The translations under genes and the position numbers were made by a program. This document shows positions 3,420 to 14,852 of a stretch of 64,000 nt of DNA, piece by piece. Source of the stretch: Aromatoleum evansii (GTDB lineage: Bacteria; Pseudomonadota; Gammaproteobacteria; Burkholderiales; Rhodocyclaceae); contig NZ_WTVK01000004.1 of the NCBI RefSeq assembly GCF_012910805.1, positions 1 through 64,000 of the forward strand, in the 5' to 3' direction. The stretch's first letter is position 1, and every line of letters starts with the position of its first letter. The notes under the pieces are model-generated. The model was given only the letters and a program-made list of their open reading frames with translations. It searched no databases and had not been told where the DNA came from.

Positions 3420-3863
3420 ATGACCAACCTCTCCATCTACACCTTCCCCCAGCTCAAGCAACTCGCCGCCCGGATCGAGAAGGAGATCGCCAAGCGCGAG
3501 TCCGTGACCAAATCCGATCTTCTGAAAAGGCTGACGAAGCTCGCGAAGGAAAGCGGCCTCTCCCTTGACGACGTGCTCGGAAACGCCACTCCGGTTCCGG
3601 CGAAAGCTCGGAAGGTTTCCCCCAAGGGGACAGTTACGCGCAAAGAGCCTTTGCCAATCAAATATCAGCACCCAAGCAACCGCGATCTCGCTTGGTCCGG
3701 ACGCGGACGCCGGCCGCAGTGGGTCGAAGCTTGGTTGGCGCAGGGGGGTGCATTGAGCGCGCTGGAGATCGCAGCGCAAAAGATGGCAAAGCGGAGCATG
3801 AAGAAGGCGACCGAAGCGCAGCCGGTAGTGCAGGAACCGCCGGCAGAGGTAGCGGCTGGCTAA
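3420..3863 (+). CDS. H-NS-family nucleoid protein / xenogeneic silencer
   Basis: A 147-residue H-NS/MvaT-type architecture. The N-terminal half is a coiled coil (YTFPQLKQLAARIEKEIAK onward) for oligomerisation. After a linker, the C-terminal domain reads YQHPSNRDLAWSGRGRRPQW, matching the family core with its GRGRRP minor-groove loop. A Lys/Ala-rich tail follows. Such proteins bind AT-rich foreign DNA and silence it; an ICE-borne copy may soften the cost of the element or tune its own genes. The first 99 bp of coding sequence recur inverted at 1-99. The ATG at 3420 gives MTNLSIYTF. Family assignment is confident; the role on the element is inferred. Confidence 0.85.
   Translation: MTNLSIYTFPQLKQLAARIEKEIAKRESVTKSDLLKRLTKLAKESGLSLDDVLGNATPVPAKARKVSPKGTVTRKEPLPIKYQHPSNRDLAWSGRGRRPQWVEAWLAQGGALSALEIAAQKMAKRSMKKATEAQPVVQEPPAEVAAG
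3428..3526. repeat. Inverted repeat, right copy (partner 1-99)
   Basis: This is the partner of the repeat at 1-99, in opposite orientation, inside the 5' part of the complete H-NS-like gene. The two arms flank about 3.3 kb holding a truncated replication-type gene, two unnamed genes and an EAL gene. Confidence 0.9.
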
Positions 3864-3904
3864 GCCGCTTTGGGGGTGTCGGGGAGTTCGAAGCGTCCGC
3901 ACAT
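3860..3904 (-). pseudogene. Possible remnant of an SRAP (YedK/HMCES-type) gene start
   Basis: The minus strand reads MCGRFELPDTPKAA and then stops. MCGRF is the diagnostic start of SRAP proteins, whose Cys2 becomes catalytic after Met removal. Only 14 codons remain, and they overlap the end of the H-NS-like gene. It could be a scar of a lost SRAP gene or chance; a complete SRAP gene sits at 16862-17530. Confidence 0.3.
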
Positions 3905-4253
3905 TCCGCCACCCCAATTGGCCCGGCGCATTGGCCCGGCGCACCAGGTCATCACTGACCATCCGTCCGAAGCCGCTTCGTCGTAGAACGAGTGGCAGGT
4001 TCCCGCGCACAGCACGCATCCAGAGCGGAACCCGAGCGAGTCTTGCTCGGCCATTGCTGTCATTCATCATCCAACCTAAGCATGTCGGCAACGCGCCCGT
4101 TATCGGACATCGGTCAGGACAACGGAGCGCCAACAGATCAACGTAGCCGAAATTATGACAAGAGGGCTGCCTGTGCTCGAACTAGCCAGCTGTGCCGCGC
4201 GCCCGTACGAGCTGAACTTATTGTTCCGCGCCGGGCCATACAATGCCGTCGAG
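3905..4253. other. Intergenic region with a short tandem repeat
   Basis: No gene is supported. Positions 3917-3942 contain a perfect 13-bp tandem duplication (attggcccggcgc twice). The region is the junction between the GC-rich ICE segment on the left and the more AT-rich OLD/UvrD operon on the right. Confidence 0.5.
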
Positions 4254-5084
4254 CTATTGCCGACGATTGTTGAGTATGAGGTCGCCGGCATCCCTCAAGG
4301 CAATCTCGTACCGTTCAGGGGAGGACTGTCGAATTTTCTCCACGACTATGCGGTGCTCATCGCTGCTGATCTTAAATTTCTCCACACCGAAGCGACTGGC
4401 GATGTCTCCAAGCGAGGCCTTGCCCCAAGAATCTTCAGCCATCCCATCAGGATGCAGAACGACGCTGTGAAAATACCCACGTTCGTTGCGACGCGTTCCT
4501 TCAAAGAGTGGCGAGAAGCGTATCGCCAAAAGGGCGACGGGCTGCAGTCCGTTAATTTCATGCATCGCTTCAGCAAATGCAGCGCATAGACCAAATGTAA
4601 ACCGCGCTGCCTGGTGTGCTGGAAGAAACGGCCGGTTCCTTGGTGGGATTGCGGAGAGATAGTGCTTATTCTCCCGAATCTCCTCAATTGCACGGACAAT
4701 CTTTCCCTCCTCTGGTTGGCTTCGGAGAGGCAGCGACGAGAGCTTTTCCTCGTCGTAAAATCGAGTATAGACACTCCCGCTTCCTGTACTGATCCGGCGC
4801 GCTATCTTTGTGATCGTGTTTTGATTGAAGTCAAAAATTGATCTGATTCCGCGCACATCGAAAATCCGGTCATGATTATCAGCAACGTAGACTCGAAGCG
4901 GTTTCAGTTGATCTAGCGGAGTATCTTCCTTGTGTTCGGTGGATGTGGACCACCAGTCAACGTGAAGCAGCCAGCCAGTTAGCCGTGCAAGTGCAACCGC
5001 GAAGTTGACACAATCGTCAGCCTCCCATTCCTCGACAAGTTGCGGCCTAAACGAAGTGCGCTGCTTGATCTTCGCTTGCCCCAT
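4254..5084 (-). CDS. Third gene of the OLD/UvrD operon: duplicated papain-like-fold candidate
   Basis: 276 residues. I recognise no named family, but the protein appears to be an internal duplication of one module. Half 1 has DDCVNFAVALARLTG (Cys25) and LRVYVADNHDRIFDVRG (Arg64, Asp76). Half 2 has GLCAAFAEAMHEING (Cys167) and FHSVVLHPDGMAEDSWG (His206, Asp218). The second blocks align without gaps over 17 residues. A Cys helix followed by His and Asp on strands is the layout of papain-like/NlpC-type cysteine hydrolases. Half 2 keeps a possible Cys-His-Asp triad, while half 1 has Arg where the His should be. The gene follows the helicase gene by 116 bp on the same strand with its own ribosome site (gagg). 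Function as a protease, deamidase or similar is inference. Confidence 0.6.
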   Translation of the reverse strand: MGQAKIKQRTSFRPQLVEEWEADDCVNFAVALARLTGWLLHVDWWSTSTEHKEDTPLDQLKPLRVYVADNHDRIFDVRGIRSIFDFNQNTITKIARRISTGSGSVYTRFYDEEKLSSLPLRSQPEEGKIVRAIEEIRENKHYLSAIPPRNRPFLPAHQAARFTFGLCAAFAEAMHEINGLQPVALLAIRFSPLFEGTRRNERGYFHSVVLHPDGMAEDSWGKASLGDIASRFGVEKFKISSDEHRIVVEKIRQSSPERYEIALRDAGDLILNNRRQ

Positions 5085-5200
5085 TTATTAATCCTCGCAA
5101 AGTTTCTACTATAGGCGCGGCGGCCCCTGTCGATTTCTGATCACGTGTATGCTTTGATGATCGGCTCGTTGATATGTATAAGGTAAAGAAATGGTCGGTG

Positions 5201-7015
5201 TTACGGGAGTAGCAGCACGCAAGGGTCTATCTTGGGCGTCATGATAGTGACCCGCTTCTTCCCACGTGTTACGCTAACCCGGAAGTTCTGTCTAACCTGA
5301 TCGTTGATGGCATTCCTGTCATTTCCACGAACGATCCGGTCAAAATTCGCCACGATTTTCCCCTTGGCGCGTCGAGGGTAGCTCTCGTAGATGATCACTT
5401 CGTCGAACTGCTTGCCCTTCGCCTTGTGCATATTCATCACGACCACTCCGGACTCCGGCCTCGAATTAGTCGAAAAATGCTCCTGGACAAACGAGCGTCG
5501 TGTCGTGGACAAGGCATTCAGATAACACCCATTATCCCGCCAGTCCTGACTGAGCGCCTGCCTGAACTGTGTTCCGCGCTCAAGTAGACGAATTGCCCGG
5601 ACATCGTCCGCCACGTCTCTGAGTCTTGAGCACGGGCCCTTCTCAAGAAGGGAGCGTACGTTTTGCCAATCCAGATCTGGATCCCCTGACAATTGGAGCG
5701 ATCTGACCGTTTCGTAAACCTGGAAAAGGCCGACGAGGACACTGTTTTTTTTGATCGGCTTTCCGACAGCGCTCCGCTCCAGCCATTCCTCGTACGCCTT
5801 CCTTAACCCGTCAGCTTCCTTGATATCGCCCTTGGTCGGACTGTCGCCTCCTCGACCATGGAAATAGTTCCGCAGCAGCGACAGAAATAGGTCGAAATGC
5901 CCAAGTTCAGCGAATGGCTGCATCAATACGGCGATGATCTCAGCACCCAAAATAGCTGCGTCTAGTTCGATCGAAGCTCTATGGTGAACCCTAGTCATTC
6001 CGGCAGGAGGTACTCTCAAGGCGTCGGAGACGAATCTGGTCATCCTCTTGGTCGGTACGAGGATGGCAAGTGACCAGTCCTGCTTGCCTGAATCCACAAG
6101 CCGCTTTCTTGCTTCATATGTTTGCTTGACCAACGCTGTCATGGGCATCGCTCCGTTCGCCTCGTAGCAGACGAAGTCAATCCCTTCATAGGTCTCCTGA
6201 GTAAAACCACCGGACAACAGGTCGTTGCCAAATTTCGCAATGTCGGTTCCAGGACTTCGATGGTTGTCCTGGCTGAGATCGATTTCGGTTGGAGCGAATG
6301 CTGCACGAAAGTGATTCAGGCGCTCTGGGTCCGCCCCGATCCAGTCGTAGATTCTCTGTTCCGGATCGGCAAGAGCAAACAAGGTACTGACGCCGCCCAG
6401 AGCCTTGACCACGTTCCATTGTCCAAAATTCGTATCCTGAAACTCATCCAGAATGATCGTCGGGTACATCGTAGAAATGAGCCGACAGACGCGCACACTT
6501 CCGTTCAGGATTTCCCCCACATAGGTAGCGAAAAGGCTGAAACAGACGCTCCCCTCATCTCTCGCCAATCGCTGACGCTCTGCCTCCTCTAAATCGTTCC
6601 GCTCCTTCATTTCCGCCGGCGACAACTTCGACCCTGATTTAAACTGGCTACGGATTGATGCAAGCGCGATCGCCTCGGACGGGGGCGTAAGGATAGTTAG
6701 CCGTCGAGGAAGCCCGATAAGGTATCCATGCGCCTTCAAAATCCGCCAGAAGAACGAATGGTAGGTCTCCACCTCGATGCGACGTTTCTGCTCGCGTGGA
6801 ATTTGCTGTTCGTGCTCAATGGCCTCGACGACCCGGGACACTGTTGCCCGAGCGAAGCTCAGGAACAAAACCCGTCTCTCCGGAAGCAGATCCTCTTCGG
6901 CAATCCGCGCAGCTTTGAGAATCGATACCGTAGTCTTGCCGGAACCGGGGCCCCCCGTAACGAGAAGATGCCCTTCGGCATCCATGATTTCCGACTGCTT
7001 GGGCGTAAGATCCAT
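5201..7015 (-). CDS. gajB: UvrD-type superfamily 1 helicase, GajB-like
   Basis: 604 residues with the SF1A helicase motifs in order: Walker A GGPGSGKTT (about 21-29), the Q-motif-like LTPKQSEI at the start, Walker B/DEFQDT in IILDEFQDTNFGQW, DPEQRIYDWIGADP, HRSPGTD, MNMHKAKGKQFDEVII (motif V) and FRVSVTRGKKRVTI (motif VI). It starts 3 bp after the stop of the OLD nuclease gene, so the two are co-translated. A class 2 OLD nuclease paired with UvrD-like helicase is the published layout of the Gabija anti-phage system. It is longer than the well-studied GajB (near 500 residues), so it may be a distant or variant member. Substrate and activity are inferred from family. Confidence 0.8.
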   Translation of the reverse strand: MDLTPKQSEIMDAEGHLLVTGGPGSGKTTVSILKAARIAEEDLLPERRVLFLSFARATVSRVVEAIEHEQQIPREQKRRIEVETYHSFFWRILKAHGYLIGLPRRLTILTPPSEAIALASIRSQFKSGSKLSPAEMKERNDLEEAERQRLARDEGSVCFSLFATYVGEILNGSVRVCRLISTMYPTIILDEFQDTNFGQWNVVKALGGVSTLFALADPEQRIYDWIGADPERLNHFRAAFAPTEIDLSQDNHRSPGTDIAKFGNDLLSGGFTQETYEGIDFVCYEANGAMPMTALVKQTYEARKRLVDSGKQDWSLAILVPTKRMTRFVSDALRVPPAGMTRVHHRASIELDAAILGAEIIAVLMQPFAELGHFDLFLSLLRNYFHGRGGDSPTKGDIKEADGLRKAYEEWLERSAVGKPIKKNSVLVGLFQVYETVRSLQLSGDPDLDWQNVRSLLEKGPCSRLRDVADDVRAIRLLERGTQFRQALSQDWRDNGCYLNALSTTRRSFVQEHFSTNSRPESGVVVMNMHKAKGKQFDEVIIYESYPRRAKGKIVANFDRIVRGNDRNAINDQVRQNFRVSVTRGKKRVTIMTPKIDPCVLLLP

Positions 7016-7018
7016 GGG

Positions 7019-8851
7019 TCACACTGCTTCGCCGCCGGACTCGGCTCCCGCCTCGATGACTTCCAGCTTCGGCTGCGGTGAGCAATAGGTCTTGAGCGTA
7101 ATGCACGCATCTCGAATCCATCCGGGTATCTCGTTCTCCGTGCATTGGGCGAGGAAATCGGCAACCGCGAGATCGGCCTTCTTCGCCTGGAAATATTCGC
7201 TGACAGCCGCATAAAGATCTTCTTGAGGGTTTGGATACTTCCCCTTTAGGTGCGATGGCCATTCGACTGCAAGAGCAAAGCGCGAAAGGGCTTCGATCGT
7301 TGTATTCTTCAGAACAAGGTCTTCGATACCCTTTTCCTCATGCATGAACAGCCGATCGACCTGGGGTTCGATGAGAGCCTTGTTCTCTTCGCTCTGCTTA
7401 TCGCAGAAGGCGAAAGTTTCCTTACCAAGTTTCTTGTAGAGGGCGGAGAGGTCTGGAATGCTCTTCTCGCCACCCGCATCAACAGTGCTGATCCCCAACG
7501 CTTCAAGTGGAGCGTATCTCGTCGGGTCCAGCTCCGTTAGACGACGGCATGCGACTGGGAATGCGGCAGCTTCAGTCGCCCCTTCTGCAATCAAGACGCG
7601 ACGAGCGAGCAAGCCCTCGCAGAAGCGTGTCCGGAAATCCATGCGATACCGCTTCGGTTTGACGCTGTCAGGTAGCGCAATCTTCGATTGGCTAAGCGTC
7701 CCTTTGTTGTCTCGGCGAAGAACCAGAGTCTCGTCGAGTGCGAACTCCTCCAGGATGTATGGTGAGTGGGAAGTGAATATAGTCTGAGATGCGAGCTTCC
7801 GCACTTCGTGCACGATGCGCTTTTGGGCATACGGGGGAATCGCCGTCTCCGGCTCTTCCATTGCGAAAATGACATTCTGCTTGCCCTCAGCAATCAGGGA
7901 AAGCAGCGCGAGGACGAGCATGTTAATCGTCCCGGTCCCTTGGCGGTAAAAAGGTGCCGAATGGTCGCCCTCCCCAGTAGCGATGAACGCAGTAATGACC
8001 TTCCTGAGGTTCTCACGTGTCAGGTTAGAAACCTTTAAATGGGGTTCGATGCCCCACTCTTTGGGAACGTACTTCTTAAGAGCAGCATTGATGCTCTCCA
8101 AGACTCCCGAGATTCCCAATTCAGGATCGCTGGCAACGGAATAGCCGGAGATGCTTGATATAGTATCTTCCCACATCCTGGGTCGGACCTCCTTCTGTCG
8201 CAGGATGATGTCCAGCAGACTTCCGCGTTCTAGGCTCAATGCTCTTGAGCCGGTTCGTACGGAACGGAGATAAAGGAACCCGCAAAACTGCTTATCCTTC
8301 TTGGTGAACGGGACAGGAGACTCGCTTTCTGTGAGGCTTCTGGTGTAATAAGTGTTTCCCTTGAAATCATCCTCTTCCGGCTCGTATTGGCCGATGAACG
8401 TAACTCTAAGCGCTTCGCCGATGAACTCCGCATCCACTCCTTCTGGATTAGGAATCGAATAGAGCGTATTTGTCGAAGCATCCCAGAATTCGATATCGTC
8501 TCCAAATCGAGCCTTCTGCTCATCGCTCAGGTCCGTGATGGTTGCTTCGATTTCAATTTTTGGGGCTTTTTGCTCTACAGCGGGATCTTCCAGAACAACC
8601 TCTACCCCAGCATGAAGTTCCGCGGCTGGTTGCTCCGGACCGCCAATCAGATAATTACCCAAATAGAAGTCATGCTCATCAATCGGAGGATTGCGGCTAA
8701 GTCGATCCGGTCCGAGAACTAAATCGAGAGCTTCGAGGATCGTTGTCTTTCCAGTGTTGTTATCACCGATCAGTACGCTATGCTGAGGGAGAAATACGGT
8801 CGCGAAGTGAATCCCGCGGAAATTGGTGATATTGACGCGACAAATCTTCAC
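7019..8851 (-). CDS. gajA: OLD-family ATPase/TOPRIM nuclease, GajA-like
   Basis: 610 residues. The N-terminal ABC-type ATPase has Walker A GDNNTGKTT (29-37), a signature-like GTGTINML near 305, Walker B VIFAMEEPE (327-335) and switch His in SHSPYI (361-366). The C-terminal TOPRIM nuclease has IAEGATE (Glu423), VDAGG (Asp458) and FCDKQ (Asp484). The last motif is D-x-Q rather than the usual D-x-D, so metal binding may differ. The size and the downstream UvrD helicase match Gabija GajA, a nucleotide-sensing DNA nicking enzyme; class 2 OLD proteins usually have this partner. First gene of a three-gene minus-strand operon, more AT-rich than neighbouring ICE genes, suggesting separate acquisition. 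Confidence 0.82.
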   Translation of the reverse strand: MKICRVNITNFRGIHFATVFLPQHSVLIGDNNTGKTTILEALDLVLGPDRLSRNPPIDEHDFYLGNYLIGGPEQPAAELHAGVEVVLEDPAVEQKAPKIEIEATITDLSDEQKARFGDDIEFWDASTNTLYSIPNPEGVDAEFIGEALRVTFIGQYEPEEDDFKGNTYYTRSLTESESPVPFTKKDKQFCGFLYLRSVRTGSRALSLERGSLLDIILRQKEVRPRMWEDTISSISGYSVASDPELGISGVLESINAALKKYVPKEWGIEPHLKVSNLTRENLRKVITAFIATGEGDHSAPFYRQGTGTINMLVLALLSLIAEGKQNVIFAMEEPETAIPPYAQKRIVHEVRKLASQTIFTSHSPYILEEFALDETLVLRRDNKGTLSQSKIALPDSVKPKRYRMDFRTRFCEGLLARRVLIAEGATEAAAFPVACRRLTELDPTRYAPLEALGISTVDAGGEKSIPDLSALYKKLGKETFAFCDKQSEENKALIEPQVDRLFMHEEKGIEDLVLKNTTIEALSRFALAVEWPSHLKGKYPNPQEDLYAAVSEYFQAKKADLAVADFLAQCTENEIPGWIRDACITLKTYCSPQPKLEVIEAGAESGGEAV

Positions 8852-9271
8852 GTAAACCTCGGTCGTTATCAGAATGTCGGCATTTTAGTCCGAGCCGGAG
8901 ACGTCGTCCCATGAACTTTTTCTAGCGTGATGACCAACGGGTCCGACGGTAGTCCGGTTTTGATAGCGCAGCGGCGGCAACCAAGGTCGACGGCCGCAGA
9001 CCGATGACCCACGAGCCGCTCGGAGAGAACGTGTAGATAGATTACTCAACGAGCCGCGCTCTGCGCTTCGCCCGTCCGAATTCTAGGAGTGGGTCAGAGT
9101 GGCGAGATCGCTGAAGGCCAGAACGACTATTCCGGCTGACCTCGAAGTCGCGGGCCGGTACCGGCTTGAGACCTGTCGCTGAGAGGCCCTCCGCTCAGCG
9201 GCAGGTGAGGCCGATTAGTGTGAATTGCCCCTCCGACAGGTTCCGGAGTACAGCCGTCAGCCGGCTGGCTG
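8852..9271. other. Intergenic region between defence operons
   Basis: No gene, tRNA or convincing repeat is seen in these 420 bp. It must contain the promoter of the OLD/UvrD operon (minus strand) and the end of the nuclease operon at 9272. I cannot choose a -35/-10 pair with confidence. Confidence 0.4.
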
Positions 9272-11527
9272 CTAGCTCACAATCGCCCTATGCTCATCCA
9301 CCCCTCGCCAAACTTCCTCACGCTCGATCACTTCGAGGAATCTGGCGACGCTGAAGCCAGCCGGATACAAGGTCTTGGACGGTTCGCCCTCCACGTCGGG
9401 CAGATCGCCCTCGCCCAGGTTCCCGTGCAATAGCCCGGCTGGATCGTCGAGGAGGTGCGAATCGTCTCGCAGCGCGATCAACACTTCCTCCAGCGAGACC
9501 TTGAGAAACCCCTCGAACCGCTGGTGGTCGCACTCGATGGAGGTATCGACGATCCAGCCGTGAATGTGCAGCTCGTCCTCCATGCCTTTTAGCGCAAGTT
9601 TTTCTGAGAACTCGGAAGGGTCTCGCAGTGCCCGCTCGACCGCTGCCACCTTCCGCCGCAACTGGATGCCCGCCTTGCGGAGTGTCGTCGTCGAATGGAG
9701 CCAGGCGTCGCGGTTCGAGCGCCTGAGGTAAGTGGATTTGAGCTCCAGGACGAGCAATACACCGTCACGGGCACAGACCAGATCAACCTCGCCGGGGATC
9801 TCAGAGTCGGTCGGCGGCGGCGTCCAATTCAGGACGATACGAAACCCCCTCGATTCGAATAGCTGGCCAAGCCGCTCCTCGATTCGTTGCGTCTCCTGTC
9901 GGGCTTCGTCGCGACGTGCCCCCAAGCGACGCAGGTTGTTGATCGCGGCGGAGCTGTTGTTCTGTACCCCCACGACCCATGGCAGTTGCACGAGGAGCGA
10001 CCCAAGCTTCAAAACAGGCCGCTCAAATAGCCCCGGCTGCACGCCGCCGCCCCCGTCGCGCATCCGCGTGCCCAGTTGCCCCCAGTCACTGGTCCAGAAG
10101 TCCAGAATCGCGGCGGCCATTTGCGGACTGCCGTTGGGGCAGTCATCGCGCACCGTCCAGCCAACGATATTTGCGATCTTCTCTGACCGATCGGACCAGG
10201 TCAGAGGGAAGCGATTCTGGAACTCGTCTGCAAGTCCGAAGAAGGCAAGGCGACTCAGCGCAGCGAGCGTGTCCCGGCTGTCCTCGAGGTGCTCGGCAAA
10301 CACCAGCAGAAAGTCCCGCAGGAAGAACGCGGACATCAGTTCAAGCGACAGCAGCGCCGTAAAGAGATGCACTTGCTCGCCAGTGTCGGTGGTCACGGTC
10401 TCATCGGCGCCGTACACCTCTGTCAGCCGAAGATGGGTCCGCATCGCGGCGATGTAGGCAAACTGGTTTGCCTCATGATTCTCGGGGCGACCGATGATCT
10501 TTCCTGCCTTCTCCGACGATACGAAGGCATCCATCGCCCGGTAGAGCCAGTAGAAATGCAGTCGGTCGAGTTTGCGACCATCCCTTGTCCAAGCTGCCCG
10601 CAGAGCCGGGTTGATCCGTTCAATTTCCAGCCGCCGGTCGTGCCGCACGAAGCGGATCGCATCGTCGTAGCAAAACGCCTCGGCCGAGCGCGACAGAAAT
10701 GCATTGAGCTCGACCTGGTCCGCTATCACCTGCGTGAAGGCCGCCAAGAGATCGTGCCGCGGAGGATGACCTGACGGAGACGGGAAGATCAGCGGAGACA
10801 GGTGTTTCGCGACGGACATGGCAGCGTCGTATTCGGATACGCGCAGGGTCTTCTCGGGCGCAGTGGCGAGCTTCCAGCTTACGAGGGCCGCGAGGGCGTC
10901 CCAGAATTCCTCGTCCGTCGGCTGCTCCTCTCCCTCGTCCAGGACAACGCCCCCCACGTTTCGCGGGACAAGCGTGTGGAAAGCATGAAGACTCGCGTAC
11001 AGGATGAGTTCGAATGGCGTCAGTTCAGATAGCCGCGCCCGACTTTTCTCGAGTGCGGTAATGCGTAATTGATGCGCCGCCTCGAATATCTCAAGAACAC
11101 GGCAAAGCTCCGCGATCTCGGGCGCGAGCTCGGCCATCCCCGCCAACTCCGCGCGTCGTGGGGACGTCGAACGCAAGACGAGTCCCGAGCGCCGCACTGC
11201 GTAACACACGGTGTCGGGCAACGACTGCGCGAGCCGCGAGACGAGCGGAACATTAGCCACGCGATCCTGCGAGAAGTAACGTACCAAGGCCAACGTGAAA
11301 GGCTCGGTCGCCCATCTCTCAATGGGCACCGCACCTACGACGGCACTGCTCCAGAAGGCTTTGTCCCGCTCTGCCTTCGAGATTTTTTTCTTGCCCCGCA
11401 GACGTGGCTTGCCATCCAAGTAGTCTTCGACCACAAGGCGCGCAGCGTCCTCGGGCGTTCTTCCCGACGCCTGCATTCGCTCAAACGTCGCGTCATAGGC
11501 GGTGAAGGGCACCTCGGATCCGGACAT
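9272..11527 (-). CDS. Large defence-type protein with C-terminal PD-(D/E)XK nuclease core
   Basis: 751 residues from the ATG at 11527, which lies 5 bp after the stop of the Mrr-type gene. The first 575 residues are mostly helical and I recognise no family. Residues about 579-598 read GEVDLVCARDGVLLVLELKS, a good PD-(D/E)XK core (Asp, then Glu-x-Lys). The remaining 150 residues include IHGWIVDTS, like the final strand of such nucleases. It is likely a DNA or RNA endonuclease working with the upstream membrane-anchored Mrr-type protein, given the tight spacing. It is not a known restriction subunit that I can name, and the specificity part is unknown. Confidence 0.6.
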   Translation of the reverse strand: MSGSEVPFTAYDATFERMQASGRTPEDAARLVVEDYLDGKPRLRGKKKISKAERDKAFWSSAVVGAVPIERWATEPFTLALVRYFSQDRVANVPLVSRLAQSLPDTVCYAVRRSGLVLRSTSPRRAELAGMAELAPEIAELCRVLEIFEAAHQLRITALEKSRARLSELTPFELILYASLHAFHTLVPRNVGGVVLDEGEEQPTDEEFWDALAALVSWKLATAPEKTLRVSEYDAAMSVAKHLSPLIFPSPSGHPPRHDLLAAFTQVIADQVELNAFLSRSAEAFCYDDAIRFVRHDRRLEIERINPALRAAWTRDGRKLDRLHFYWLYRAMDAFVSSEKAGKIIGRPENHEANQFAYIAAMRTHLRLTEVYGADETVTTDTGEQVHLFTALLSLELMSAFFLRDFLLVFAEHLEDSRDTLAALSRLAFFGLADEFQNRFPLTWSDRSEKIANIVGWTVRDDCPNGSPQMAAAILDFWTSDWGQLGTRMRDGGGGVQPGLFERPVLKLGSLLVQLPWVVGVQNNSSAAINNLRRLGARRDEARQETQRIEERLGQLFESRGFRIVLNWTPPPTDSEIPGEVDLVCARDGVLLVLELKSTYLRRSNRDAWLHSTTTLRKAGIQLRRKVAAVERALRDPSEFSEKLALKGMEDELHIHGWIVDTSIECDHQRFEGFLKVSLEEVLIALRDDSHLLDDPAGLLHGNLGEGDLPDVEGEPSKTLYPAGFSVARFLEVIEREEVWRGVDEHRAIVS

Positions 11528-11532
11528 CGGTA

Positions 11533-12321
11533 CTACCCCTCCACGCCGCGTCGATGCGTGCTCTTGTCGGCCGCACGCATAGGCAACATTGAACGGCACT
11601 TCGGAAAGCTCGGGCAGCCCCAGAACGGTCCGCGCTTGCTATCGCGAGCCATCATCTTGGTGCCGCACCCCGGGCAGGTCGGCGTAGTCCAGTCGCCCTC
11701 GGTGGCAAACGCCAGAAGGTCCGCACGGGCGGTCTCGGGCAGACGCTCCAACATGGCCAGAAAGAGTCGGCCGTCGACCAAGGTGATCCGATTCTCCGCC
11801 GCGAATGCGCGGGCATCATCGGTGAAGCCATTCGGCGCCATGAAAAACCCCTTTTCGACGCTCTGGTGCGCCATGACACCTCGCAGCTCGCGGATCGGCT
11901 TCACACCAACGGCCTGGCTCCATGCCTTGCACTGAACGATCGCCGAGCATCGGCCGGGATCGGCGTCATCCTGAAAAAGCCAAATATCGATGCCGCCATC
12001 AGCACCCAAGACGGTGGTTTCGGCCCGAAGCCCCTTGACCCGGTAAAACTCGCAGCACACATCTTCGAAGCGTTTCCACTCGATCCGATCGATGACCTCC
12101 CGCGTCCAAACCGTCGGACGCTCCGGGATGTCAGGGTGCATCCCCCGCTCGCTGCGTGCACGCAACAAGGCCTCGTCAATCGCCGAGAGCGGCGGATTGC
12201 CCGCCGCGGACACCGGCTCAATCCGCCTCATCGACATGCGGTCCACGCTCGACGATGAGGCCCGCACCTGCTGCTTGGAAAAGCGGATCAGGGAAATGCA
12301 GCCGAAAACGGCGGCCATCAT
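11533..12321 (-). CDS. Mrr-type restriction endonuclease with topoisomerase zinc finger
   Basis: About 262 residues. The first 15 form a hydrophobic segment (MMAAVFGCISLIRF). After a linker comes an Mrr_cat domain: WKRFEDVCCEFYRVKGLRAE, GADGGIDIWL (catalytic Asp) and SAIVQCKAW (Gln-x-Lys). The C-terminus has a topoisomerase-type zinc ribbon, CPGCGTKM then FWGCPSFPKCR. This layout (membrane segments, Mrr nuclease, zinc ribbon) is common in proteins annotated as restriction endonucleases. The ATG at 12321 overlaps the TGA of the small upstream membrane gene (ATGA); together they rebuild the usual N-terminal membrane region, so this may be a split gene. Downstream is the PD-(D/E)XK gene. Confidence 0.75.
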   Translation of the reverse strand: MMAAVFGCISLIRFSKQQVRASSSSVDRMSMRRIEPVSAAGNPPLSAIDEALLRARSERGMHPDIPERPTVWTREVIDRIEWKRFEDVCCEFYRVKGLRAETTVLGADGGIDIWLFQDDADPGRCSAIVQCKAWSQAVGVKPIRELRGVMAHQSVEKGFFMAPNGFTDDARAFAAENRITLVDGRLFLAMLERLPETARADLLAFATEGDWTTPTCPGCGTKMMARDSKRGPFWGCPSFPKCRSMLPMRAADKSTHRRGVEG

Positions 12322-12509
12322 CCAAACCAAGGGGTAACGAGTGCAGCCACCGCGCTCAGTAGTGGCTGCCGACCAAAGAGAACAGGCACGATCACCAAGG
12401 CACCTACGACACAGAAGGCGGACATGCCTGCGGACACCTTCCAGTCCGAAGTGACAGCGATCTCGATGAGCCCCGGTTCGCGGCGGGATTTGCGGTAACG
12501 TCGATTCAT
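12318..12509 (-). CDS. Small membrane protein, probable split-off N-terminus of the Mrr-type nuclease
   Basis: 63 residues starting MNRRYRKSRREPGLIEIAV, then hydrophobic stretches (SAFCVVGALVIVPVLFG and LLSAVAALVTPWFG). Basic N-terminus followed by two membrane segments is how the full-length Mrr/zinc-ribbon family begins. Here the frame stops in a TGA overlapping the ATG of the nuclease gene, whose first residues supply the next hydrophobic segment. Either two coupled genes evolved by splitting, or a frameshift (biological or sequencing) interrupts one gene. Confidence 0.55.
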   Translation of the reverse strand: MNRRYRKSRREPGLIEIAVTSDWKVSAGMSAFCVVGALVIVPVLFGRQPLLSAVAALVTPWFG

Positions 12510-12555
12510 TGCGTGATTATGCTCAGAGCAAGGAGAGAAGGTGTCACGGGATTGG

Positions 12556-13710
12556 TCACCACTGTGAATTTCGCGGCGGCATTGCGGGGCAGCTTTGCAG
12601 GGCGCCCTCACGTGCCTGCAAGTCCGTCAGGAACTGGTCGAGGTGCTCGTAGCAGTCTTCGCCGCGCAGCAGGCGGGATTCCGCAATGCCGAAGTACACG
12701 CAGTGGAGCCCTGCGGCCCCGGCGAACTCCGACAACGCTGCGTCGTACTCACCGGTGCGGGAACGGGGCCCGGAACTGCCGAAGGTCACGAGACAGGAGC
12801 GATCACCATGGGGGTGATGCCGCAGAAAAGCGATCGCATGGGTGAGGTGAAACACCTTGGGCTCGGGATAGGCGCCCGACAGCACGGCATGGCGCCGTGC
12901 GGGGTCTTTGGGAATGAGTCCCATGGCAGGGTGAAAAACCATCTCCACCACCTCCACGTCACCCTCCTCAGCCGCAATTTCGCGCTGAGCGTCCGCGGCC
13001 GTCCTGACGCGGAGCTGGCTTTCGGTGAGGGGCTTCCGCCGCAGCGCTTCAGCTTCGCGCATCTCCTCCTGCAGCCTTTGCCGCAATTGCGCCTCACCCA
13101 CATGAAACACCCATTGCCGGATGCTCATATCGGTGCGCAGCGCGAGTTCCAACGTGGTCAGGTTCCATCCCCCGCTGCGGTACATCCGCGACAGATCGAA
13201 CTCAAGCGTCGACACGCGATGGCCTTGAAGTCGGTTGCGTTTCGCATCATCGACCGCATGCGCGACTTTCACCTCGCACCAGATCTGCTCGTTCGCGCAA
13301 TGAAGAACCACATCAGGTCGCACGCGAAGATTCGACCAGGGCGAACGGGCACGACGCTCGTCGGGAAGTTCTGATCGACGCACAGACAAGATTCGGCCCG
13401 GCAGCGCGCCTTGCCGTCCCGCTTCGTGAACAAGCAGTGCGGGCAGTTCAACCCACTGCCAACCCGCGAGGATCTGCCGAGCCGCCCGGTGCAGTGCGCT
13501 TTCGCGACCACCGTCGCAAGTCGGACGCGCACGACCGGCGACGTGATGAGCGAAGTGGTGGCGATTCTTCCGACCTTTCCGCGCCTGCAGTTCGGTGCCG
13601 CAGTTCGGGCACACACATTCGCACGCCAATCCGCGCTCTACCATCCGGATATCAATCATGCGGCCGGTCTTGCGGGATAGGGCAAAATCGAGACCTTCGT
13701 CATTTTTCAT
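12556..13710 (-). CDS. CoiA-like nuclease/competence-family protein
   Basis: 384 residues from the ATG at 13710 (ggag about 8 nt upstream). Near residue 40 there is a zinc-binding CVCPNCGTEL followed by RKGRKNRHHFAHH, the Cys-rich N-terminus seen in CoiA-like proteins. A PD-(D/E)XK-type core follows: RVRPDVVL, then IWCEVKVAHAVDD (Asp, then Glu-x-Lys). The C-terminal half is unassigned, with a charged helix and AFLRHHPHGDRSCLV. In Gram-positives CoiA processes incoming DNA; in proteobacterial islands its relatives are of unknown role but often sit among defence genes, as here. Only 11 bp separate its start from the divergent gene at 13722. Confidence 0.65.
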   Translation of the reverse strand: MKNDEGLDFALSRKTGRMIDIRMVERGLACECVCPNCGTELQARKGRKNRHHFAHHVAGRARPTCDGGRESALHRAARQILAGWQWVELPALLVHEAGRQGALPGRILSVRRSELPDERRARSPWSNLRVRPDVVLHCANEQIWCEVKVAHAVDDAKRNRLQGHRVSTLEFDLSRMYRSGGWNLTTLELALRTDMSIRQWVFHVGEAQLRQRLQEEMREAEALRRKPLTESQLRVRTAADAQREIAAEEGDVEVVEMVFHPAMGLIPKDPARRHAVLSGAYPEPKVFHLTHAIAFLRHHPHGDRSCLVTFGSSGPRSRTGEYDAALSEFAGAAGLHCVYFGIAESRLLRGEDCYEHLDQFLTDLQAREGALQSCPAMPPRNSQW

Positions 13711-13721
13711 TGGAATGCTCC

Positions 13722-14852
13722 ATGAGTGCCAAGGACGCACCCATGCTCGACGTCGAGCCCCAGCAAAACGAGGGAAGATCGCGGGAAGAGTCAGGAATGA
13801 AAGCGGAACCGTCTGAATCGGAAAGACTTTTTGCTCAGGCCATGCTGCTTGCCCGCGCTGCCGAAGTGGGCACGGAAGCGGCTGCGAGCAGCCGCGAAAG
13901 TGGCTGGAAGGGCGACTGGCTCGTGCTGTTACAAGCGCTGTGCGGCCTCACCGCAAGACAGGCCGCGGCTGGTGACCCCACCCCGGTTTTCACCGCCGAG
14001 CGGCTCCGCGAGGAAATTGCGTCGATCCTCGGCGCGCCGGAAGCACAGTGGTGGTCGGACGATTCCGATTCCGTGCGGAAGAAATTCGCCAACGCATGGA
14101 AGGCGCTGGAGAACGATTTCAATCGCCTGGACGGGCACCTTCTCGGTCGGGCAATGAAGAATCGCGTCGCGGGGCAGATCGTGCTCAATGCTCCGGCTCG
14201 CCTGGGCACGACAAACGCGATGGGCTACGGTTTGAGCGTCCGACCGATCGAACTTCCTGCGGCACAACCGACGGTGGCGCCCCCCTCCGTGGCCGCCGAC
14301 GCCAACCGATCGGGGACGGCACCGTTGGAGATCACCTATCAGGAGGAAATGGAGGTCTACCCCATCCCTGGCCTCAAGCGCCCCCTGAAGCTTTCGCTGC
14401 CGGGCTTGCGCGCCCTGATCGTCCTGACGCCGATCATCGGCGCGCTCGTCGCGGGCGGTTTTCTGGTGTGGTTCCTCCTGACGCTTTGGATGTCGAACGA
14501 GGCGCCGCGCGTCCTCTTCCAATGGACGATTCTTACCGGCCTTGTCGCGGGGCTGATCGCGTGGATCTGCCACCCCTTCTACGTGCTGATCAACGACCGC
14601 ATCGTGCGCGCGCCGACGCTACTGGAAGCAACGCTCCCGCTCGGCCACGTCCTCGTGCTTCGCCGCGAGGGCGAAAATCGTGTGCTACGGATGGTGCGCT
14701 TTACCGCGAAATGCCCGATCTGCGAGGGCGAACTCACGATCGAGAAAGGCCGGCGACAGCATCGCGGACGGCTTGTTGGCGAATGTGGGCGAAATCCGGT
14801 CGAACATACGTTCTCATTCGATTTCATCACCGGCAAGGGACGGCAGCTGTGA
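13722..14852 (+). CDS. Two-TM membrane protein with C-terminal zinc-ribbon-like domain
   Basis: 376 residues from the ATG at 13722 (MSAKDAPMLDVEP); a second in-frame ATG is at 13743. The N-terminal 200 residues are soluble and acidic, with SESERLFAQAMLLARAAEVG. Two membrane segments follow (ALIVLTPIIGALVAGGFLVW and LFQWTILTGLVAGLIAWI). The C-terminal domain has CPICEGEL and GECGRNPVEHTFSFD, a probable zinc ribbon. I recognise no named family. It is divergent from the CoiA-like gene and convergent with the RexAB-like pair, within the defence cargo zone, so a role in phage sensing at the membrane is possible but unproven. Confidence 0.6.
   Translation: MSAKDAPMLDVEPQQNEGRSREESGMKAEPSESERLFAQAMLLARAAEVGTEAAASSRESGWKGDWLVLLQALCGLTARQAAAGDPTPVFTAERLREEIASILGAPEAQWWSDDSDSVRKKFANAWKALENDFNRLDGHLLGRAMKNRVAGQIVLNAPARLGTTNAMGYGLSVRPIELPAAQPTVAPPSVAADANRSGTAPLEITYQEEMEVYPIPGLKRPLKLSLPGLRALIVLTPIIGALVAGGFLVWFLLTLWMSNEAPRVLFQWTILTGLVAGLIAWICHPFYVLINDRIVRAPTLLEATLPLGHVLVLRREGENRVLRMVRFTAKCPICEGELTIEKGRRQHRGRLVGECGRNPVEHTFSFDFITGKGRQL

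Follow-up and report, generated by a model that had tools for sequence, protein, structure and literature searches.

The gene directly behind the Gabija pair of Aromatoleum evansii encodes two fused copies of one uncatalogued Cys-His-Asp domain, and its membership in the Gabija system is not supported by the analysis of the window (the whole 64,000-nucleotide stretch of DNA that was analyzed). We give about an even chance to the reading that it is an autonomous defense-island passenger behind a two-gene Gabija, likely a thiol effector with a pseudo-copy that is independent of GajAB.

In the pair itself, gajA (7019-8851, minus strand; 610 aa, GTG start) encodes an OLD-family ATPase with a TOPRIM domain and gajB (5201-7015, minus strand; 604 aa) a UvrD-like SF1 helicase, with 3 nt between them on the same strand. 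GajA matches the PADLOC model PDLC00086 over residues 1-598 (E = 1.1e-261) and contains the Pfam domains AAA_15 and OLD-like_TOPRIM, and GajB matches PDLC00104 (E = 4.8e-225) and Pfam UvrD-helicase (E = 9.4e-28). These are the top PADLOC models for the two proteins and the gene order is the published one, so the first-pass annotation of this DNA was right to call them a Gabija pair. A motif comparison with ten relatives found the ATPase motifs and the TOPRIM glutamate of the window GajA to be broadly common to them; one of the ten (L029) deviates in Walker A and B. At about residue 485 the window GajA has the stretch FAxxDKQ, which has no second Asp; this FAxxDxQ stretch reads D-x-Q or D-x-K in the window and in 10 of 10 aligned relatives, and the PDB GajA alignments listed end ahead of it, at residue 433. 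This GajA subfamily may thus, on the alignment, have a divergent TOPRIM site.

The third gene (P0001, 4254-5084, minus strand) encodes a 276 aa protein and is separated from gajB by a 116-nt gap (5085-5200, minus strand; GC 0.448), in which GAGGA stands 7 bases ahead of the ATG and a consensus scan of the minus strand detected neither promoter- nor terminator-like sites. The GC contents of the three genes (0.523, 0.542 and 0.527) are low relative to the 0.596-0.65 of five neighbors, and this shared composition and common strand would fit their arrival as one cassette. A near relative (G006) has the flanking DNA in common (91.9% over 964 bp) up to position 3864, one base past an H-NS gene, plus one further 55-bp match at 3975-4029, and has no match to 8855-12500; judging from the boundary near 3864, the last gene of the island in that direction seems to be the third gene. 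Searches of Pfam, PADLOC, NCBIfam and PHROGs assign the third protein to no family at E ≤ 0.001. PD-Lambda-3_A was considered as its identity and rejected, there being no PADLOC match to it at E ≤ 0.1, and the literature covered on YunG, papain-like proteins and PD-Lambda-3, which excludes subscription papers, contains nothing on this protein. Two other features of the region may be recorded. Upstream, 9272-13740 holds defense-like genes for a protein of 775 aa whose C-terminal part matches the PADLOC viperin-associated NERD model (2.1e-20), an Mrr-type nuclease with a zinc ribbon and a CoiA-like protein. Positions 1-99, where the contig begins, are identical in inverted orientation to 3428-3526 inside the H-NS-like gene, which is either a repeat or an assembly-end artefact.

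Is the third protein a true internal duplication? The first-pass annotation had said that its two halves align to each other, quoting segments that start at residues 23/165 and 63/205; both pairs are offset by 142, so that C25-R64-D76 and C167-H206-D218 stand in equal positions. The duplication proved real, but the quoted letters alone are not significant: shuffled versions of the window protein reach the best local score between the halves in 549 of 2000 cases and those of its Undibacterium relative (below) in 413 of 2000, and the second quoted pair, of 17 residues, has a BLOSUM62 score of -3. Self-alignment of the halves was therefore rejected as proof, as was hhalign of the N-half against the C-half alignments, which finds the correct register and is too weak to stand alone (Prob 1.7, P 0.029). 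When column scores are averaged over three N and three C halves, the 23/165 pair is the best ungapped 15-column match, and the best score is reached in 0 of 500 column shuffles for 15 columns and in 3 of 500 for 17 columns. The repeat is established by a profile of 12 plasmid sequences outside the window family (window family rows were excluded and Miltoncostaea was left out), which recognizes both halves in the same register: scores are 16.4-20.0 bits for the three N halves and 39.7-51 bits for the three C halves. Each of the four halves examined by shuffling (three N, one C) is equalled in 0 of 2000 shuffles, and of 936 stop-free frames the highest-scoring unrelated one reaches 6.1 bits. The C-half match is partly circular, since a C half and its finds served to collect the profile members; no N half was used in collecting them. 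In the window protein the N-terminal copy, at about residues 15-98 (4791-5042, minus strand; 20.0 bits and also placed by the joint alignment below), carries Cys25 (5010-5012), Arg64 in place of the His (4893-4895) and Asp76 (4857-4859), and the C-terminal copy, at about residues 150-258 (4311-4637, minus strand; 39.7 bits), carries Cys167 (4584-4586), His206 (4467-4469) and Asp218 (4431-4433).

A joint alignment of 24 domains (18 from outside proteins, three N halves and three C halves) has Cys in 24/24 and Asp in 24/24, the Ala after the Cys and the Gly after the Asp being likewise invariant, and has His in 21/24, with Arg in the three N halves only; the Gly preceding the Cys is also absent from these three. 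The C half has the profile match and all of Cys, His and Asp, whereas the N half has the profile match (16.4-20 bits) with Arg for His in 3/3 and is a homologous, degenerate copy. It follows that the Cys-His-Asp set belongs to the second half, the first being a pseudo-copy that is itself conserved; the annotation's description of the protein as half-degenerate holds in all three N halves found, and its choice of Cys167, His206 and Asp218 is borne out by their conservation in all 21 aligned domains outside the N halves. These three residues are invariant in 4/4 C halves and in 16/16 domains of a further alignment (A6), where they are the sole invariant polar columns among members that, beyond the window's own clade, are 18-26% identical to the window. 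The N half is the better conserved one, being 70-72% identical between the window and its Undibacterium and Herbaspirillum relatives where the C half is 54-59% identical (65-72% and 54-59%, respectively, over all pairs of the three proteins). In the same pairs pN is 0.17-0.23 against a pS of 0.81-1.04 in the N half and 0.25-0.30 against 0.78-0.83 in the C half, dS being saturated; the comparisons that involve the window protein give a pN of 0.17-0.30 and a pS of 0.78-0.82. Purifying selection acts on both halves, and the higher conservation of the N half together with pN far below pS means that it is a maintained pseudo-copy and not a decaying one.

The outside members define a single-domain family with the approximate motif GxCxxxA...H...PDG...D..G. 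The way in was a search with the Undibacterium C half, which gave 11 weak plasmid rows (E 0.4-9); six whose alignment spans Cys to His were taken (H28-H33) and the five without the Cys were dropped, and on reading the motif is present in 6/6 of those taken. A Nocardia row from the N-half search is not in the set, and six other rows of that search, as well as two rows of another, were also left out. The next round gave 10 records, three already in the set and seven added, and a later round gave 11, of which six were already members and four were new places (one of them a second site on a plasmid already in the set), with Amycolatopsis left out; one phage row was added as well. When the outside members were scanned against the catalogs PHROGs covered six and PADLOC none, and the Pfam and NCBIfam scans left out the last five found. 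Cys, His and Asp are invariant in the 18 outside members aligned, which come from plasmids of three phyla (actinobacteria, bacilli and proteobacteria) and from one 309-kb phage. As far as its sequences tell, the domain is a widespread, uncatalogued family, defined here. The phage member is a gene of Tunturi_5 (L051:2450-2992) that its depositors annotated as an endolysin, and a Pseudomonas silesiensis plasmid (L036, L054) has two members, one of which forms the end of a roughly 440-aa protein.

Tandem forms are rare. Genome contigs, when scanned, yielded two relatives: one of full length in Undibacterium crateris (L004, 63% identity) and another in Herbaspirillum sp. RV1423 (L003). The Herbaspirillum gene is interrupted by an insert with a transposase-like ORF, and its two parts, at 8435-8803 and 10001-10474 of that locus, correspond to residues 1-123 and 117-274 respectively. 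Searches at other levels gave 3 of 399 genomes in the order (the window's own, a remnant in G266 and a chance match in G423), 1 of 395 in the family (its own), 1 of 43 in the family of G266 (G266 itself) and 2 of 101 among relatives (its own and a chance match in G061). The G266 remnant is a C half only, with one internal stop, 75% identity to the window and a dN/dS of 0.114, and this fragment is flanked by genes of different kinds. The chance matches G061 (judged from its ORFs) and G423 were dropped, as were six class-level genomes on their translations, and G089 and G118 were judged chance from the surrounding ORFs. Direct searches of viral contigs, plasmids and phages for relatives were empty at E ≤ 1e-3 or 0.01. 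This makes four tandem-form loci in all, one split and one a remnant, and the linkage numbers below are correspondingly thin. At the Undibacterium locus the gene lies between an LA2681-HEPN gene and a gene whose DUF4145 match is below the Pfam cut-off, and at the Herbaspirillum locus it is preceded by an XRE-type HTH gene and followed by PD-Lambda-3_B (1.2e-72) and AbiJ-type genes. None of the three Undibacterium neighbors scanned is recognized by PADLOC and the DUF4145 match is sub-threshold, so the defense context comes mainly from the Herbaspirillum locus and the window.

These neighborhoods bear on two other accounts of the gene. It could be a plasmid- or phage-derived processing or wall-acting enzyme of some other conflict, left behind as cargo with no part in defense; single-domain relatives do occur on plasmids and in the 309-kb phage, where the gene is labelled an endolysin, and the split and fragmentary homologues imply that the tandem gene is dispensable at those loci. 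The purifying selection on the tandem form, its position near HEPN or abortive-infection-type genes at two loci and the absence of a wall-binding domain match in Pfam speak against this account, which we consider possible though rather unlikely. We are more doubtful that the protein acts as a plug-in effector, in the form of a thiol hydrolase with a built-in pseudo-copy that moves between defense modules and works with whatever sensor is adjacent; on that view the modules would be GajAB here, HEPN_LA2681 in Undibacterium and XRE/PD-Lambda-3_B/AbiJ in Herbaspirillum.

What fold might the domain have? An AlphaFold2 model of the whole protein, built from four sequences, has a pLDDT of 60 and a pTM of 0.42, and predicts the order helix-strand-strand-strand-helix-strand in both halves, with low confidence in the N half. 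The C half modelled alone from three sequences (pTM 0.68, pLDDT 70) repeats this order. The structural check proposed with the original call thus gave a fair C-half model but no PDB match at E ≤ 0.001: Foldseek found 0 of 203 such matches for the full-length model and 0 of 229 for the C half, where the best row is the ubiquitin clippase BpJOS (E = 0.24), and no significant hit came from profile searches against solved structures. Among the 50 rows listed for the C half, of 229 matches in all, are 12 that we take to be papain-like-fold enzymes, and the weak rows 9f5t, 8p19, 9qvs and 5lq6 are presumably papain-like, NlpC/P60 or Josephin-type cysteine enzymes; such a share is suggestive only. Against BFVD, 1 of 495 matches of the C half passes 0.001 (A0A6J7WQN0). 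A papain-like fold of the C half, as first suggested, is plausible but unproven. If instead both halves were binding modules, with the Cys kept for structure or metal binding, the absence of a fold match would fit, as would the stronger conservation of N halves, despite their missing His, relative to the C halves of the same protein pairs; Cys, His and Asp as the sole invariant polar columns of the 16 A6 domains are nevertheless the usual sign of an active site, and we regard a non-catalytic duplicate as improbable.

The linkage of the gene to Gabija was examined at 12 other GajAB loci, namely all six non-self matches of one search and, from 140 plasmid records of another, the best six. Within the stretches retrieved, the third gene is present at 0 of 12 (E ≤ 1), including loci whose GajA is about 59-67% identical to that of the window. 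Ten of the 12 have more than 3.9 kb of DNA downstream (L026 has 339 nt and L021 3.3 kb). At L031 (GajA) and L032 (GajA and GajB) the matches come in pieces, so these copies may be broken. Conversely, 0 of 3 relatives of the third gene have GajA or GajB near them in the DNA retrieved. Downstream of gajB, the ORFs of 100 aa or more (up to four per locus) have no family common to the loci, the sole similarity being between two within one locus. No plasmid record matches the third gene at E ≤ 0.01, and 22 of them match GajA over 80% or more of its length; a search across the family detected GajB-type genes in 8 other genomes, of 297. Two neighbors at these loci deserve mention: a caspase-family gene about 3 kb downstream in the Croceicoccus plasmid Gabija (L027), and a SIR2-family gene adjoining gajB in that of a Sinorhizobium plasmid (L032).

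The first-pass annotation had inferred a role for the gene as a third Gabija component and had looked to recurrent linkage with OLD/UvrD operons to decide the point; as far as tested (0/12 and 0/3) there is none, and what follows gajB here is a neighbor of a standard pair, either unrelated or loosely associated. That a co-transcribed third component triggers, tunes or reverses GajAB by modifying or processing GajA, GajB or a phage protein is the least probable account, for although the gene lies directly behind gajB on the same strand with a low GC unlike its neighbors and with no terminator-like site on the minus strand of the gap, both counts are zero, the first of them also at loci with a GajA about 59-67% identical, the post-gajB ORFs share no family, and Gabija as described in PMC10781630 consists of GajA plus GajB, with no third gene met there, in PMC7824862 or elsewhere in the literature covered (subscription papers excepted).

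The favored reading is that the third gene landed behind a normal two-gene Gabija operon as an autonomous passenger, and the 116-nt gap that precedes it, against 3 nt between gajA and gajB, agrees with this. The second copy would be the likely catalyst, with Cys167 near a helix start as nucleophile, His206 as base and Asp218 orienting the His, an arrangement like that of thiol hydrolases and transferases of papain/NlpC-like architecture. The first copy, lacking the His, would be kept as a non-catalytic partner, probably a substrate holder or a controller of the second. The protein would then likely be an intracellular thiol hydrolase or acyl-transferase effector that acts on a protein or peptide-like substrate in phage or plasmid conflict, independently of GajAB. 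Several observations weigh against the passenger reading: conserved Cys, His and Asp may mark a catalytic site and do not prove catalysis, the single-domain relatives are mostly plasmid-borne with no defense role seen there, low GC and one strand are common to all three genes, and neither model has a PDB match (above). The tandem of a putatively active copy and a pseudo-copy is seen in defense islands and raises the question of what the pseudo-copy does, and Cys167 and His206 offer a residue-level handle on whether the protein is an enzyme. The locus also cautions against assigning a gene to Gabija because it directly follows gajB.

How does the locus compare with known systems? One of the 16 A6 members weakly matches Phage_YunG-like (PF24591; E = 0.037), a non-significant match; the window protein is unmatched by that family, and there is no match in its own genome. 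The C half resembles papain-like, NlpC/P60 and Josephin enzymes in having a Cys near a helix start, a His on a later strand and an Asp 12 residues on, and differs in that all such matches have E values of 0.24 or worse and TM-scores mostly about 0.2, with no sequence match. The predicted structure of A0A6J7WQN0, a phage protein, resembles that of the C half with an E value of 8.8e-5 and a Foldseek prob of 1.00, but TMq is 0.39, identity is 16% and that protein is itself uncharacterized. Bacillus cereus GajA has a TOPRIM DxD (D432/D434); the candidate stretch for such a site in the window GajA, at about residue 485, reads D-K-Q. As a whole the locus shares with Gabija the gene order and the combination of an OLD ATPase/TOPRIM protein with a UvrD-like helicase, and differs from it in the additional gene downstream of gajB.
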